Shown here: positions 27,477 to 36,204 of the stretch, piece by piece | Position numbering within the stretch: position 1 is the stretch's first letter | Layout: each line of letters starts with the position of its first letter | Assembly (NCBI RefSeq): GCF_009649955.1 | Contig: NZ_CP045875.1 | Span: 1,903,501-1,967,500 of the forward strand | Direction of reading: 5' to 3' | Length of the DNA: 64,000 bases | Source of the DNA: Heliorestis convoluta | Lineage (GTDB): Bacteria > Bacillota > Desulfitobacteriia > Heliobacteriales > Heliobacteriaceae | Program-made: the position numbers and the translations under genes | Notes under the pieces: generated by a model | Database searches by the model: none | What the model was told of the DNA's origin: nothing | The model's input: the letters and a program-made list of their open reading frames with translations, nothing else

Positions 27477-27521
27477 TGAAATATCTTCATGCGCTCAATA
27501 GAGTGGAGGTGTGAAGATAGG

Positions 27522-28088
27522 GTGCGTAAAAGTAAAGAAGTACGTCATGGTAGACTCGAGAAAATTTTAGAAGAGAATCCACTACAAACAGATGGAGAGT
27601 TAGCTCGGAAACTTGGCGTAAGCATCCAAACCATACGTCTAGACCGATTAGAAATTGGTATTCCAGATTTGCGTGAACGTACACGAAGAGTGGCCGCTGA
27701 AAGATTGCAAGAAGCTCGCTCGCTCAGTGATACAGAAATCATTGGGGAAATAACGGAGCTTGTGCTCGGCCATCACGGTACTTCTCGCTTAGAAATTACG
27801 AGCAATCTCGTATTACGTAAAACATCGATAGCCAGGGGGCATCATCTTTTTGCCCAGGTCAATTCGTTGGCTGTTGCTATTGTAGATGCGCCCGTTGCAC
27901 TAACAGGCATTGCTCGAGTTCGCTATCGACGTCCTGTTAGGCTTGGTGAAGTCGTTCGTGCAGAGGCTTTTATCCTAAAGGTCGTTGGTGCACGACACAT
28001 GATTCGAGTTGTTAGCAAAGTGGAAGAAGAAGTTGTTCTCTCCGGCCGATTTTATGTCGTTGCCCGTGAAGAGACATCCCGCTCATAA
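27522..28088 (+). CDS. fapR: Transcription factor FapR, fatty acid and phospholipid biosynthesis regulator
   Basis: The likely start is the GTG at 27522, which gives VRKSKEVRHGRLEKILEENPLQTDGELARKLGVSIQTIRLDR, the FapR DeoR-type winged helix with its recognition helix. An ATG at 27489 adds 11 residues without a ribosome binding site. The C-terminal hotdog domain (residues about 75-188) binds malonyl-CoA, which releases the repressor from DNA; LFAQVNSLAVAIVDAPVALTGIARVRY is the conserved effector pocket. It is the first gene of the fapR-plsX-fab operon, as in Bacillus. Confidence 0.95.
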   Translation: MRKSKEVRHGRLEKILEENPLQTDGELARKLGVSIQTIRLDRLEIGIPDLRERTRRVAAERLQEARSLSDTEIIGEITELVLGHHGTSRLEITSNLVLRKTSIARGHHLFAQVNSLAVAIVDAPVALTGIARVRYRRPVRLGEVVRAEAFILKVVGARHMIRVVSKVEEEVVLSGRFYVVAREETSRS

Positions 28089-30155: not shown

Positions 30156-31106
30156 GTGAGAACTGTTTTATGTGACCTCTTAGGAATAGAATATCCGATC
30201 CTGCAGGGTGGGATGGCCTGGGTGGCCACGGCGGAACTCGCAGCAGCCGTTTCGGAGGCTGGTGGCCTTGGTATTTTAGGTGCCGGTCAAGCGCCAGCTG
30301 ACTGGATTGATCACGAGATTCGGAAAATTAAAGAACAAACATCAAAACCTTTTGGTGTCAATGTAATGCTTCGTTCCCCTCATGTGGACGATGTAATGAA
30401 TGTAATTATTGAGCATAAAGTAAAAGTTATTACCACAGGTGCTGGCAATCCTGGCAAGTACATTCCACGCCTTAAAGAGATTGGTACCAAAGTCATTCCT
30501 GTTGTATCAGCTGTAGCGCTAGCCCAAAGACTGGAAAAGTCTGGCGTTGATGCGGTCATTGCAGAAGGCATGGAGTCAGGTGGACACGTTGGAGAAATGA
30601 CAACGATGGCACTCGTGCCACAAATTGTAGATGCTGTTAACATTCCTGTTATTGCAGCAGGTGGCATTGCCGATGGTCGTCAAATGGCTGCAGCTATCGC
30701 TTTAGGTGCTGTAGGTGTACAGATCGGGACACGATTTATGTGTGCCCAGGAATGTGCCATTCACAATAATGTAAAAGAAACGATCTTAAAAGCCAAAGAT
30801 CGTGATACCGTTGTGACGGGACGTCCTACAGGACACCCTGTCCGAGTTATCAAAAATAAGCTGACTAGGCAGTTTGATGAGTTAGAACGGCAAGCTGCTC
30901 CAGCAGAACAATTTGAGGCTTTAGGTGTAGGCAAACTTCGTCTTGCCATGGTAGATGGTGAAGTCGATCATGGATCTGTGATGGCTGGCCAAGTTGCTGG
31001 TATGATATGTAAAGAGCAAAGCTCTTCTGAAATCATTCAAGAAATTATGCAGGAAGCCAAAACTGTTATGTCCAATATGACAACCATTGTTAGTGCAAAA
31101 GCATAG
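30156..31106 (+). CDS. fabK: Enoyl-ACP reductase FabK (flavin-dependent, NMO superfamily)
   Basis: The 316-residue protein is a TIM-barrel FMN enzyme that reduces enoyl-ACP with NAD(P)H. It shows LGIEYPILQGGMAWVATAELAAAVSEAGGLGILGAG at the start, GMESGGHVGEMTTMALVPQIVDAV near residue 140 and VIAAGGIADGRQMAAAIALGAVGVQIGTRF near 165-195, which holds the FMN phosphate site. Position between fabH and fabD supports FabK over nitronate monooxygenase. No fabI is in the window. The start is a GTG after AGAGGAGG. Confidence 0.93.
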   Translation: MRTVLCDLLGIEYPILQGGMAWVATAELAAAVSEAGGLGILGAGQAPADWIDHEIRKIKEQTSKPFGVNVMLRSPHVDDVMNVIIEHKVKVITTGAGNPGKYIPRLKEIGTKVIPVVSAVALAQRLEKSGVDAVIAEGMESGGHVGEMTTMALVPQIVDAVNIPVIAAGGIADGRQMAAAIALGAVGVQIGTRFMCAQECAIHNNVKETILKAKDRDTVVTGRPTGHPVRVIKNKLTRQFDELERQAAPAEQFEALGVGKLRLAMVDGEVDHGSVMAGQVAGMICKEQSSSEIIQEIMQEAKTVMSNMTTIVSAKA

Positions 31107-32057: not shown

Positions 32058-32804
32058 ATGGGTGTAGACCAGAGGGTTGCCCTGGTAACAGGTGCTTCTA
32101 GAGGTATAGGACGAGCCGTGGCTTTTCAACTGGCTGAAGAAGGTTATACTGTCGTCGTGAACTTTATGGGCAATGAAGAAAAAGCCAATGAGGTTGTGGC
32201 TTCTATCACAGCCAAAGGTGGCCAGGCCATGGCGATACAAGGCAATGTCTCCCTTTTAGAAGATGTGGAGACGATGGCCCAAGAAGTAATGAATCGCTTT
32301 GGTAGAATTGATGTTCTAGTGAATAATGCCGGTATTACGAGGGATAATCTCTTAATGCGTCTTAAAGAAAATGATTGGGATGCTGTAATAGATACCAACT
32401 TAAAAGGCGTTTTTCTCTGCTCTAAAGTAGTCGCTAAGATCATGATGAAACAGCGCCAAGGCCGGATTATCAATTTAACTTCTGTCATTGGGCAAGTTGG
32501 CAATGCAGGACAGTCTAATTATGCTGCTGCAAAAGCAGGCGTGATTGGCTTTACCAAATCTTTAGCTAAAGAGTTGGCTTCTCGAAACATAACGGTAAAT
32601 GCTGTGGCACCTGGGTTTATCGTAACGGATATGACAGATAAATTGTCTACTGAATTGCGCGACTCCATGATCAAATCGATTCCCCTCGCTCGCTTTGGAC
32701 AGCCTGAAGATGTAGCGAACGTTGTTGCTTTTCTTGCATCAGAACAGGCTGCTTACATTACAGGCCAGACTATCAACGTTGATGGTGGTATGGTTATGGC
32801 CTAG
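32058..32804 (+). CDS. fabG: 3-oxoacyl-ACP reductase
   Basis: The ATG at 32058 is one base after the fabD stop; an in-frame TTG 30 bases upstream is less likely. The 248-residue short-chain dehydrogenase shows the NADPH loop [15 protein letters not shown] near residue 13, NNAGITRDN near 86, and the catalytic Ser-Tyr-Lys set in [23 protein letters not shown] near 137-158. It reduces 3-ketoacyl-ACP in the elongation cycle. acpP follows 35 bases later. Confidence 0.97.
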
Positions 32805-32839
32805 TGATTTATATAAGTAATTGAAGGAGGTGAAGACAG

Positions 32840-33073
32840 GTGTCAGCAAACATTTTCGAAAAAGTTAAAGCCATTGTAGTGGAACAACTAGGAGTAGACG
32901 AGGAAGAAGTCAACATGGAGACCTCTTTCGAAGATCTTAACGCCGACTCTTTGGATATTGTAGAATTGGTCATGGCGCTAGAAGAGGAGTTCGATATCGA
33001 GATCCCCGATGAAGACGCTGAAAAGATCAAGTCCATTGGTCAGGCTGTAGAATACATTAAAGAAAATCAATAA
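32840..33073 (+). CDS. acpP: Acyl carrier protein
   Basis: The 77-residue acidic protein has the ACP fold. The phosphopantetheine serine is in [20 protein letters not shown], near residue 37. The start is a GTG nine bases after GGAGGTG. It carries acyl chains for all Fab enzymes in this cluster and for PlsX. A long imperfect hairpin occupies the gap after its stop. Confidence 0.97.
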
Positions 33074-33187
33074 GTTGTTCCAAGAAAAAGTTGATGATGC
33101 TGATTCGGAAGTCCCGTAGAACCTACGGGGCTTCCTTCCTATAGATGAGATCCATCATACAAAGAGCAGACTTTTTTCTTGGACAAC
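33074..33187 (+). repeat. Long three-part stem structure between acpP and the second fabK-like gene
   Basis: The outer stem pairs 33074-33090 with 33171-33187 (16 pairs, one bulge on each side). A middle stem pairs ATGATG at 33094-33099 with CATCAT at 33153-33158. An apical stem pairs 33107-33119 with 33123-33135 (13 pairs including one G-U) around a three-base loop. The stems nest into one extended hairpin of 114 nt. No T-run follows the apical stem, so transcription probably continues. It may stabilise acpP mRNA, be cut by RNase III, or attenuate distal genes. Confidence 0.6.
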
Positions 33188-33204
33188 CTTTGGGGGAGTA
33201 ACGG

Positions 33205-34173
33205 GTGATTCTGCCAGAACTAAAAATTGGTCATTTAACAGCGAGAGTTCCCATTATACAAGGAGGAATGGCTGTTAAAATTTCAATGGCTCCTCTGGCT
33301 GCAGCTGTGGCGAATGAAGGCGGCATTGGTCTTATTGCAGCAACTGGCTTATCGGAAGATGAATTACGCCAGGAGATTCGCCAAGCAAAAGCATTAAGCG
33401 ACGGCATTATTGGCATTAACTGTATGTTTGCAGCAAAGGTATTTGCTAATCTTGTCAAAGTAGCGATTGAAGAAAAGATAGATCTAATTGTAGCGGGTGC
33501 AGGCTTTTCTAGAGATATATTTCAATGGGGTAAAGAATCAAACACGCCTATCGTTCCCATTGTATCTTCAGCGAGATTGGCCAAACTGGCCGAAAAGATG
33601 GGAGCCGCTGCTGTCATTGTAGAAGGCAAAGAGGCCGGCGGTCACCTCGGTACGGATGAGTCTATGAAGAAGATTGTTCCTGAAGTGGTAGAAGCCGTGA
33701 AGATACCTGTAATTGCGGCTGGTGGCATTGTTGATGGTACTGATATTGTAGAAGCTTTTCAGATGGGTGTCCAAGGCGTTCAGATGGGAACTCGTTTTGT
33801 AGCGAGTGATGAGTCGAGTGCCTCAGAAGCCTTCAAAAAGCTTTATATACAGTCTACCCACGACGACATAATCTTGATTGATAGCCCTGTTGGGTTGCCA
33901 GGTCGTGGTCTTAAAAATCCTTTTTGGCAAAAGCTTGAACAGGGTAACGATCTCGCCCCAGAAAACTGTATCGGGTGTTTAAAACATTGTTCAAGGCGCT
34001 TTTGCATCTTAGATGCTTTGAATCGAGCCCAGCAAGGCGATTTAGAATTCGGTTTGGTTTTCTCAGGCGAGGATGTAGAAAAGATTAAAGAAGTGCTACC
34101 AGTAAAAGAAATCTTCCGCAGACTCCTACAGGAAGCGGAAGACTATCCTAAGGAGAGTGTAGACATACAATGA
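33205..34173 (+). CDS. FabK-like/nitronate monooxygenase family flavoprotein with C-terminal cysteines
   Basis: This 322-residue paralogue of the upstream FabK shares the FMN TIM barrel: RVPIIQGGMAVKISMAPLAAAVANEGGIGLIAATG, EGKEAGGHLGTDESMKKIVPEVVEAV and VIAAGGIVDGTDIVEAFQMGVQGVQMGTRFVA. It differs in a cysteine-rich end, CIGCLKHCSRRFCILDAL near residue 257, which could bind an iron-sulfur cluster. The real substrate is unknown; relatives include nitronate monooxygenases and enoyl reductases. It starts with GTG and its last four bases overlap the fabF start, implying coupling to fatty acid synthesis. Confidence 0.85.
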   Translation: MILPELKIGHLTARVPIIQGGMAVKISMAPLAAAVANEGGIGLIAATGLSEDELRQEIRQAKALSDGIIGINCMFAAKVFANLVKVAIEEKIDLIVAGAGFSRDIFQWGKESNTPIVPIVSSARLAKLAEKMGAAAVIVEGKEAGGHLGTDESMKKIVPEVVEAVKIPVIAAGGIVDGTDIVEAFQMGVQGVQMGTRFVASDESSASEAFKKLYIQSTHDDIILIDSPVGLPGRGLKNPFWQKLEQGNDLAPENCIGCLKHCSRRFCILDALNRAQQGDLEFGLVFSGEDVEKIKEVLPVKEIFRRLLQEAEDYPKESVDIQ

Positions 34174-35411
34174 ATAAACGCGTGGTCATAACGGGTCTCG
34201 GTGTCGTCTCGCCTGTTGGGATTGGAAAAGAGTCTTTTTGGAATGCTTTGATTTCAGGAGAATCTGGAATTGGCCCGGTAACCCGTTTTGACACCAGCGC
34301 CTTACCAACTCGAGTGGCCGGAGAAGTAAAAGATTTTCAACCGACTCAATACCTTGATCGCAAAGAAGCTCGTCGTATGGACCGCTTTGCTCAGTTTGCT
34401 GTTGCTTCTGCCAAAATGGCCTTAGAAGATGGTAAGGTTGATCAAGAGCAAGTCAACAAGGAACGAATTGGTGTTGTTCTAGGCTGTGGTATTGGTGGTA
34501 TGGAAACCTTCGAAGACCAGGCTAGAGTTCTTTTTGAAAAAGGACCGGGACGCGTCAGTCCTTTTTTCGTTCCCATGATGATTTCTAATATGGCGGCAGG
34601 CCACGTTTCAATGCAATTGGGCTTAAAAGGTCCCAGTGAAACTGTTGTAACAGCTTGTGCTTCTGCCACCAACGCTTGTGGAAGTGCTTTTCGCTTGGTA
34701 CAAAGAGGCGAATGCGACATGATTTTAACTGGTGGCACAGAAGCGTCTATTGAGCCTCTTGCCTTTGCTGGTTTTTGTGCGATGAAAGCAATGTCGACGC
34801 ACAATGATGATCCGAAGCGAGCCAGTCGTCCCTTTGATAAAAGCAGAACAGGCTTTGTCATGGGCGAAGGTGCCGGTATTTTGCTTTTTGAAGAACTTGA
34901 ACACGCTTTAGCGCGGGGCGCTCATATTTATGCTGAAGTGATTGGATATGGTTGCACGAGCGATGCTCATCACATAACTGACCCTGCACCCAATGGTGAG
35001 GGTGCTGCCAGAGCCATGGCGAAGGCCCTTGGAGATGGCGGTGTAAAGCCAGAAGAAGTCAGCTACATCAATGCCCATGGTACCGGTACAGAAAAGAACG
35101 ATTACTATGAAACCATGGCAATTAAGACGATTTTTGGTGAAAAAGCCAAAGAAATCGCTATCAGTTCTACCAAGTCTATGACAGGCCACTTGCTTGGAGC
35201 GGCTGGTGCCATTGAAGTTATGGCCAGTGCTCTTGCCATTAATACGGATACAGTGCCGCCAACCATCAACTTGGAAGAGCCAGGAGAAGGTTGCGATTTA
35301 GATTATACGGCCAATGAAGCGCGCAAACTACCTGTAGATGTGGCTATTTCTAATACCTTTGGTTTTGGTGGTCACAATGCTACTATAGTAATGCGAAAAT
35401 ACAAAGAATAA
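34170..35411 (+). CDS. fabF: Beta-ketoacyl-ACP synthase II
   Basis: The 413-residue condensing enzyme elongates acyl-ACP with malonyl-ACP. The nucleophile is in VTACASATNACGSAF near 165, the two histidines are in INAHGTGTEKND near 303 and in SMTGHLLGAAGAIE near 340, and the C-terminus has NTFGFGGHNATIV. The HGTGT form replaces the more usual HGTST of FabF, a minor variation. It is the last gene of the fab operon, followed by a terminator. Confidence 0.96.
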   Translation: MNKRVVITGLGVVSPVGIGKESFWNALISGESGIGPVTRFDTSALPTRVAGEVKDFQPTQYLDRKEARRMDRFAQFAVASAKMALEDGKVDQEQVNKERIGVVLGCGIGGMETFEDQARVLFEKGPGRVSPFFVPMMISNMAAGHVSMQLGLKGPSETVVTACASATNACGSAFRLVQRGECDMILTGGTEASIEPLAFAGFCAMKAMSTHNDDPKRASRPFDKSRTGFVMGEGAGILLFEELEHALARGAHIYAEVIGYGCTSDAHHITDPAPNGEGAARAMAKALGDGGVKPEEVSYINAHGTGTEKNDYYETMAIKTIFGEKAKEIAISSTKSMTGHLLGAAGAIEVMASALAINTDTVPPTINLEEPGEGCDLDYTANEARKLPVDVAISNTFGFGGHNATIVMRKYKE

Positions 35412-35459: not shown

Positions 35460-35472
35460 CGAGGTGATTCCT

Positions 35473-36204
35473 ATGAAGAATCGAGGCAAAAAGTGTTCTG
35501 GCAGCTGGCCTACTGAGTTAGCAACCATGGCAGGCATTGAAATAAAACAGCGAAAGCTGCTCGATATGGCTTTAACACATCCTTCTTATGTATATGAAAA
35601 CAATCGTCTACCGCAGGAACACAACCAGCGCCTGGAGTTTCTCGGCGATGCTGTGCTAGGCCTGGTCGTGGCAGAACAGCTTTACAATCAATACCCGAAA
35701 TGGTCAGAAGGAGAACTATCTCGTCATCGCGCCGCCATTGTTTGTGAAGCCAACTTGGCCGAAGGAGCAAGGCGAGTTGGTCTGGGGAACTGGTTGAAGC
35801 TTGGTAAAGGAGAAGAAGGCAGTGGTGGCCGTGATCGAACTTCCAGCCTAGCCGATGCTTTAGAGGCTCTTATTGGCGCTTCTTATCTGGCTGGCGGAAT
35901 TGAAGCAGCTCGCGCACTCGTGCTGAACCTTTTTGGAGAAAAGTTAGAGAAAATGCCAGAAAAAACGGGGATTGATCACAAGACGACACTTCAAGAATTG
36001 GTTCAAAAAAATGGACAGACTGACATTTCCTATCGTATATTGGAAGAGTCTGGCCCTGATCATGATAAACTGTTTATGGCAGGCGTCTACTTGAACGGAT
36101 CTCTTGTTGCTTCAGGCCAAGGAAGAACAAAAAAAGAAGCAGAGCAAAAAGCAGCTGGTCAGGCATTGCCGAAGATTCAAAGGAATCATGAAGCTTTATC
36201 ATGA
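35473..36204 (+). CDS. rnc: Ribonuclease III
   Basis: The ATG at 35473 follows GAGGTG by six bases; a GTG nine bases earlier overlaps that site. The 243-residue enzyme cleaves double-stranded RNA. The catalytic signature is RLEFLGDAVLGLVVAEQLY near residue 50, with a second acidic region SLADALEALIGASYLAGG near 120. A double-stranded RNA-binding domain fills the end (TLQELVQKNG to TKKEAEQKAA). The radical SAM gene overlaps it by four bases. It is a candidate to process the hairpin after acpP. Confidence 0.96.
   Translation: MKNRGKKCSGSWPTELATMAGIEIKQRKLLDMALTHPSYVYENNRLPQEHNQRLEFLGDAVLGLVVAEQLYNQYPKWSEGELSRHRAAIVCEANLAEGARRVGLGNWLKLGKGEEGSGGRDRTSSLADALEALIGASYLAGGIEAARALVLNLFGEKLEKMPEKTGIDHKTTLQELVQKNGQTDISYRILEESGPDHDKLFMAGVYLNGSLVASGQGRTKKEAEQKAAGQALPKIQRNHEALS

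Follow-up and report, generated by a model that had tools for sequence, protein, structure and literature searches.

What is the long hairpin that fills the gap behind acpP in the fab operon of Heliorestis convoluta, and what might it do there? Acyl carrier protein (ACP) ranks among the cell's most abundant proteins and has to outnumber the enzymes encoded alongside it in the operon. The first-pass annotation had described the whole gap between acpP and the following fabK-like gene as one long rod, ideal either for RNase III cutting or for stabilizing the 3' end of acpP, which would leave ACP in excess over the distal enzymes. We analyzed this locus within a window of 64 kb, part of a 3.22 Mb one-contig genome, and compared it with related genomes.

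The rod behind acpP

The gene order is fapR - plsX, fabH - fabK - fabD - fabG - acpP - 131-nt gap - fabK-like - fabF - rnc, where plsX, fabH and fabD are named by sequence alone, without a family search. As annotated, rnc lies downstream of the rod. The features that matter here are the following.

27489-28088: fapR, in the same operon as acpP
30156-31106: fabK, the first FabK-family gene (513 bits against the FabK cut-off of 453)
32840-33073, + strand: acpP, acyl carrier protein, 77 aa (TIGR00517, 113.9 bits against a cut-off of 70.45), the gene to which the element is tied
33074-33092 with 33169-33187: outer stem, 18 pairs interrupted by a bulge and a single unpaired base (from the fold)
33074-33092, + strand: outer 5' arm of the genus-specific rod (from the fold), not present in any of the other 7 genomes of family f1 that were examined
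33098-33101 with 33165-33168: middle stem, 4 pairs (from the fold)
33107-33119 with 33123-33135, + strand: inner hairpin, a perfect 13 pairs with a 3-nt loop (from the fold), the phylum-wide element
33111-33116, + strand: core 5' arm GTCCCG, invariant in the 24 rows of class alignment A1 except one with T at the fourth base
33126-33131, + strand: core 3' arm CGGGGC, which is CGGGAC in most other genomes
33136-33147, + strand: TTCCTATAGATG, the stretch behind the hairpin, which has no U-tract; CTTCCTKCCTATAGA is retained here in most members of family f1
33169-33187, + strand: outer 3' arm of the genus-specific rod (from the fold)
33192-33198, + strand: probable Shine-Dalgarno sequence GGGGGAG of the fabK-like gene, read from the sequence, just outside the rod
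33205-34173, + strand: fabK-like gene, GTG start at 33205, next in the operon (TIGR03151, 224 bits against a cut-off of 453)
34170-35411, + strand: fabF (TIGR03150)
35464-36204, + strand: rnc, RNase III (TIGR02191)

The operon holds two FabK-family genes, one above the FabK cut-off (30156-31106) and one, directly behind the hairpin, below it; because of its low score, the role of the second is uncertain.

The gap does fold into one long rod, as claimed. The predicted energy of 33074-33187 is -45.1 kcal/mol, compared with -23.1 +/- 3.2 kcal/mol in dinucleotide shuffles, and none of 200 shuffles was as stable (z -6.84). The stem sizes originally given, 16, 6 and 13 pairs, held only for the inner stem; recomputation gave 18 pairs for the outer and 4 for the middle one, and the rod also includes a small side hairpin. 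Much of the energy comes from the inner hairpin, GGAAGUCCCGUAG-AAC-CUACGGGGCUUCC (33107-33135), which alone folds with -21.9 kcal/mol. When this hairpin was kept and only the flanks were shuffled, 3 of 1000 sequences folded as well as the rod (z -3.2), implying that the outer rod, too, is unlikely to be a product of chance, if less strikingly than the whole fold. The same test in the sister species G001 gave 18 of 1000 (z -2.3).

The rod occurs once in the genome (the next match has E = 0.1), and we therefore rejected a repeat or MITE. A search of the window against Rfam release 15 gave no match above the gathering score, and the four sub-threshold matches in 32800-33400 were all unrelated.

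An old inner hairpin within a younger rod

We collected 30 acpP-fabK gap loci, 29 of them with acpP present. The inner hairpin was found in all 29 readable gaps, with the pattern GUCCCGUA (GUCUCGUA in one) opposite U-R-CGGG-R-C and a loop that varies in both length and sequence. The outer arms were found in only two, G000 and G001, both from the genus Heliorestis, and the few differences between their arms are not compensatory; we therefore rejected the outer rod as a conserved feature. Judged from this comparison, the rod is made of two layers of differing age, an inner hairpin that is an old RNA element and an outer stem added later in Heliorestis.

To follow the inner hairpin through the class we searched 82 genomes with a covariance model of it, R1. 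In the window this model matched 33103-33149 (55.6 bits, E 1.7e-12), and the only other significant match there was the palindrome's own reverse strand. At E <= 0.001 there was one match per genome in 53 of the 82 genomes: 9/9 in family f1, 42/45 in f2, 2/3 in f4 and 0/25 in f3, so that the strict hairpin is absent from all the f3 genomes searched. The four misses in f1, f2 and f4 are genomes in which acpP was likewise not found. Where acpP was found in these three families, the hairpin was present in 53/53 genomes, no more than 120 nt downstream and on the acpP strand. At the f3 locus L320 (G018), a GCCCCGTAG-CTACGGGGT hairpin precedes rnc; a weak model match adjoining acpP was seen in G052.

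Across the phylum, R1 matched 50 of 398 genomes at E <= 0.001 under strict filters. Eighteen of the out-of-class loci were read out; acpP is adjacent in 17, including one in which the match is on the opposite strand. The remaining locus, L090 (G177), has a long core-bearing hairpin, GAAAGTCCCGAACTG...CAGTTCGGGACTTTC, that does not adjoin acpP. We also scanned all prokaryote genomes for the pattern without regard to acpP; this gave at least 119 stretches, of which 80 were listed and read, and 32 of these 80 lie directly behind acpP. All 32 carry Bacillota titles, with Bacillus, Brevibacillus, Aneurinibacillus, Metabacillus, Clostridium and Desulfosporosinus among the genera, and the remaining matches listed appear to be dispersed hairpins of Bacteroidota and other groups, for the most part with the look of terminators. 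Two loci from gut Eubacteriales (L113 and L134) hold both the pattern and an acp match, the pattern being outside its expected place behind acpP.

We also chose loci by ACP similarity rather than by the motif. The ACP search matched 365 of the 398 genomes. Of 138 loci from its best-ranked rows, which for that reason lean toward ACPs near that of the window, 72 had the strict core no more than 150 nt from the stop codon, 21 a looser form and 45 neither. Many of the gaps that lack the motif hold a different hairpin in its place. When the best hairpin was taken from each of 156 distinct gaps, its left arm carried GTCCCG in 101, TCCCG in 15 and another sequence in 32; 8 gaps had no good hairpin.

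Among the Bacilli, 70 of 101 genomes were read out (the 30 best-ranked and 40 of the remaining 71), and the strict core was found in 30 of the 70 (14/30 and 16/40). In other Bacilli AGTCTCG/CGAGACT or AGCTCCG/CGGAGCT occurs, which is the same stem with pairs exchanged. Eight loci (L290, L291, L313, L318, L321, L331, L332 and L343) have GGTTCCCGTAG or GGCTCCCGTAG opposite CTACGGGACTTTTC, one 5' base out of register with the usual stem.

The core was absent from all 65 other strong hairpins taken from elsewhere in the window and from the flanks of related loci, and it did not occur behind acpP in any of 13 non-Bacillota genomes selected for holding the pattern elsewhere. By these sequence comparisons, the stem sequence is a Bacillota trait among the genomes compared.

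An RNA structure tied to acpP

Does the palindrome act as RNA? The covariation analysis proposed by the first-pass annotation separated the two layers, with compensatory changes in the inner hairpin and none in the outer stems. In the 114 motif-anchored rows of alignment A3, both sides had changed at 10 of 12 pairs, with 139 both-side-change cells against 39.3 +/- 5.6 in shuffles; covariation was 0.408 against 0.221 in shuffles, and sliding the partner abolished the signal. A3 took in only rows whose best hairpin was no longer than 34 and showed a pyrimidine before a C-G/G-C anchor. This filter accounts in part for the percentage of pairing and for the two anchor pairs never varying; row selection alone does not produce the exchanges of pair type. 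Alignment A1 comprises 24 of 25 distinct class cores (one near-duplicate was left out, and no locus was lost by selection). Its wobble cells, 52 G-T and 7 A-C, fit an RNA of the acpP strand. Alignment A2, in which sense and antisense matches are mixed, was left out of the pair counts. On this comparative evidence, the inner hairpin is an RNA structure. The four-pair stem GTCC|GGAC occurs in 80 of 148 anchored hairpins, and only 20 four-pair types were seen.

The position of the hairpin ties it to one gene. In 142 degenerate-motif loci of 200, the distance from the acpP stop to the core start has quartiles of 10, 15 and 20 nt, whereas that from the core end to the next gene has quartiles of 48, 79 and 122 nt. 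The next gene also varies (fabF in 58, rnc in 48, fabK in 34), although in the 70 Bacilli loci it was rnc in all 67 cases with a recognized next gene. The fixed distance to the acpP stop and the varied next gene imply that the element belongs to acpP, and make it unlikely that the hairpin serves one given next gene as leader or attenuator. A search for promoter-like sites between the hairpin and the fabK-like gene was negative, so that fabF and rnc seem to need read-through.

What the hairpin may do

Our favored reading, to which we give a probability of about 0.55, is that the inner hairpin is a cis-acting 3'-end stabilizer of the acpP segment, by selective RNA processing and stabilization (SRPS), inherited widely in the Bacillota. 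The long fab transcript would be cut downstream of the hairpin, or RNA polymerase would sometimes release there; the hairpin would then block 3'-to-5' exonucleases, and the acpP segment would outlive the distal fabK/fabF/rnc segment, leaving ACP in excess. In Heliorestis the later outer stem would extend the hairpin to a rod, and in lineages with a good U-tract the hairpin could double as a leaky terminator.

The closest known parallel is the cip-cel operon of Ruminiclostridium cellulolyticum, where stem-loops behind operon genes are described as directing nearby cleavage and protecting the upstream message, most of them without a U-run (PMC4423207, PMC10311766). Like these SRPS stem-loops, the acpP hairpin is a stable, GC-rich, intergenic stem-loop inside an operon, directly behind the 3' end of a gene needed in excess, in the same phylum, and without a U-run in the window and most members. 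By analogy with cip-cel, the acpP hairpin perhaps guides cleavage as well. The two differ in that the acpP hairpin keeps its stem sequence across the Bacillota and is tied to one gene, whereas the sequence of the SRPS stem-loops is said not to be conserved (PMC10311766). The main texts searched of papers on SRPS operons do not mention acpP.

The part of the first-pass annotation that proposed stabilization of the acpP 3' end and an excess of ACP therefore fits the stop-anchored position, the compensatory changes and the lack of a U-tract in most genomes; its RNase III part is not supported in general. Two observations sit less well with a stabilizer. The motif is missing from about a third of the surveyed gaps (45/138) and from family f3, and the conserved letters of the stem are left unexplained, because a pure stability barrier needs none.

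The alternative that survives best, possible if on balance improbable, is a leaky intrinsic terminator that would end transcription behind acpP for most polymerases and let a minority continue, leaving more ACP than distal enzymes. The acpP hairpin resembles such intra-operon terminators in its GC-rich stem and, in some lineages, in the T-run behind it: many genomes have TTTCTTTT or a comparable T-run after the core, and 34 of 112 relatives have at least 6 T in the next 8 nt. The acpP-fabF gap of E. coli K-12 (L349, 2053-2139) also holds a hairpin, unrelated in sequence and terminator-shaped, followed by TTTTATCTTTTT. However, a GC-rich stem with an immediate U-tract is present in only part of the relatives and not in the window, and no terminator-like site was found in 32600-33500, so the hairpin is not recognized as a terminator there. 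Moreover, 48 of the 112 relatives, family f1 included, have no more than 4 T in these 8 nt and yet keep the stem. The conserved stem sequence is a further difference; to our knowledge, it is not usual for terminators to share a single stem sequence phylum-wide, which counts against this alternative.

The same conservation raises the question of what reads the stem. We suggest, quite tentatively, that GUCCCG/CGGGAC may be read by a candidate conserved Bacillota RNA-binding protein or ribonuclease that sets the supply of ACP. The related proposal that an RNA-binding protein or a small RNA docks on the stem in a sequence-specific way and so controls acpP or the distal genes strikes us as rather doubtful. 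It would account for stem letters that are conserved even though exchanged pairs are tolerated, but we found no partner, the loop and flanks are variable, and individual bases are seldom read out in the deep groove of A-form RNA, all of which counts against it.

An RNase III processing site, perhaps with feedback on rnc, is very unlikely as the general explanation. An RNase III substrate would be expected to have a long, conserved double-stranded stem of about 20 bp or more. The presence of rnc in the same operon (next in every recognized Bacilli case) and the long rod of Heliorestis speak for this enzyme. The conserved stem is only about 9-15 bp, and this shortness disfavors RNase III as a general agent; the long rod is confined to the two Heliorestis genomes and shows no compensatory change, and in many genomes the next gene is fabF or fabK, not rnc. 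A DNA operator bound by a dimeric repressor such as FapR was rejected despite the presence of fapR in the same operon as the palindrome, since the arm spacing varies by several bases (loops of 3 to over 10 nt) where an operator would have fixed half-sites, the wobble pairs fit RNA of one strand, and the palindrome is positioned behind a gene.

The E. coli hairpin, like the Bacillota element in lying directly behind acpP in the fab cluster but unlike it in sequence, suggests that a hairpin in this place is useful more widely. Our searches of open-licence PMC papers turned up no account of such a hairpin following acpP in the Bacillota. A reader of the stem, if there is one, would link the synthesis of membrane lipids to the turnover of RNA. 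With position, fold and stem letters all preserved between Heliorestis and Bacillus, the acpP hairpin would rank among the most widely conserved mRNA 3' elements of Gram-positive bacteria, and it is a candidate new Rfam family, readily testable in Bacillus subtilis.
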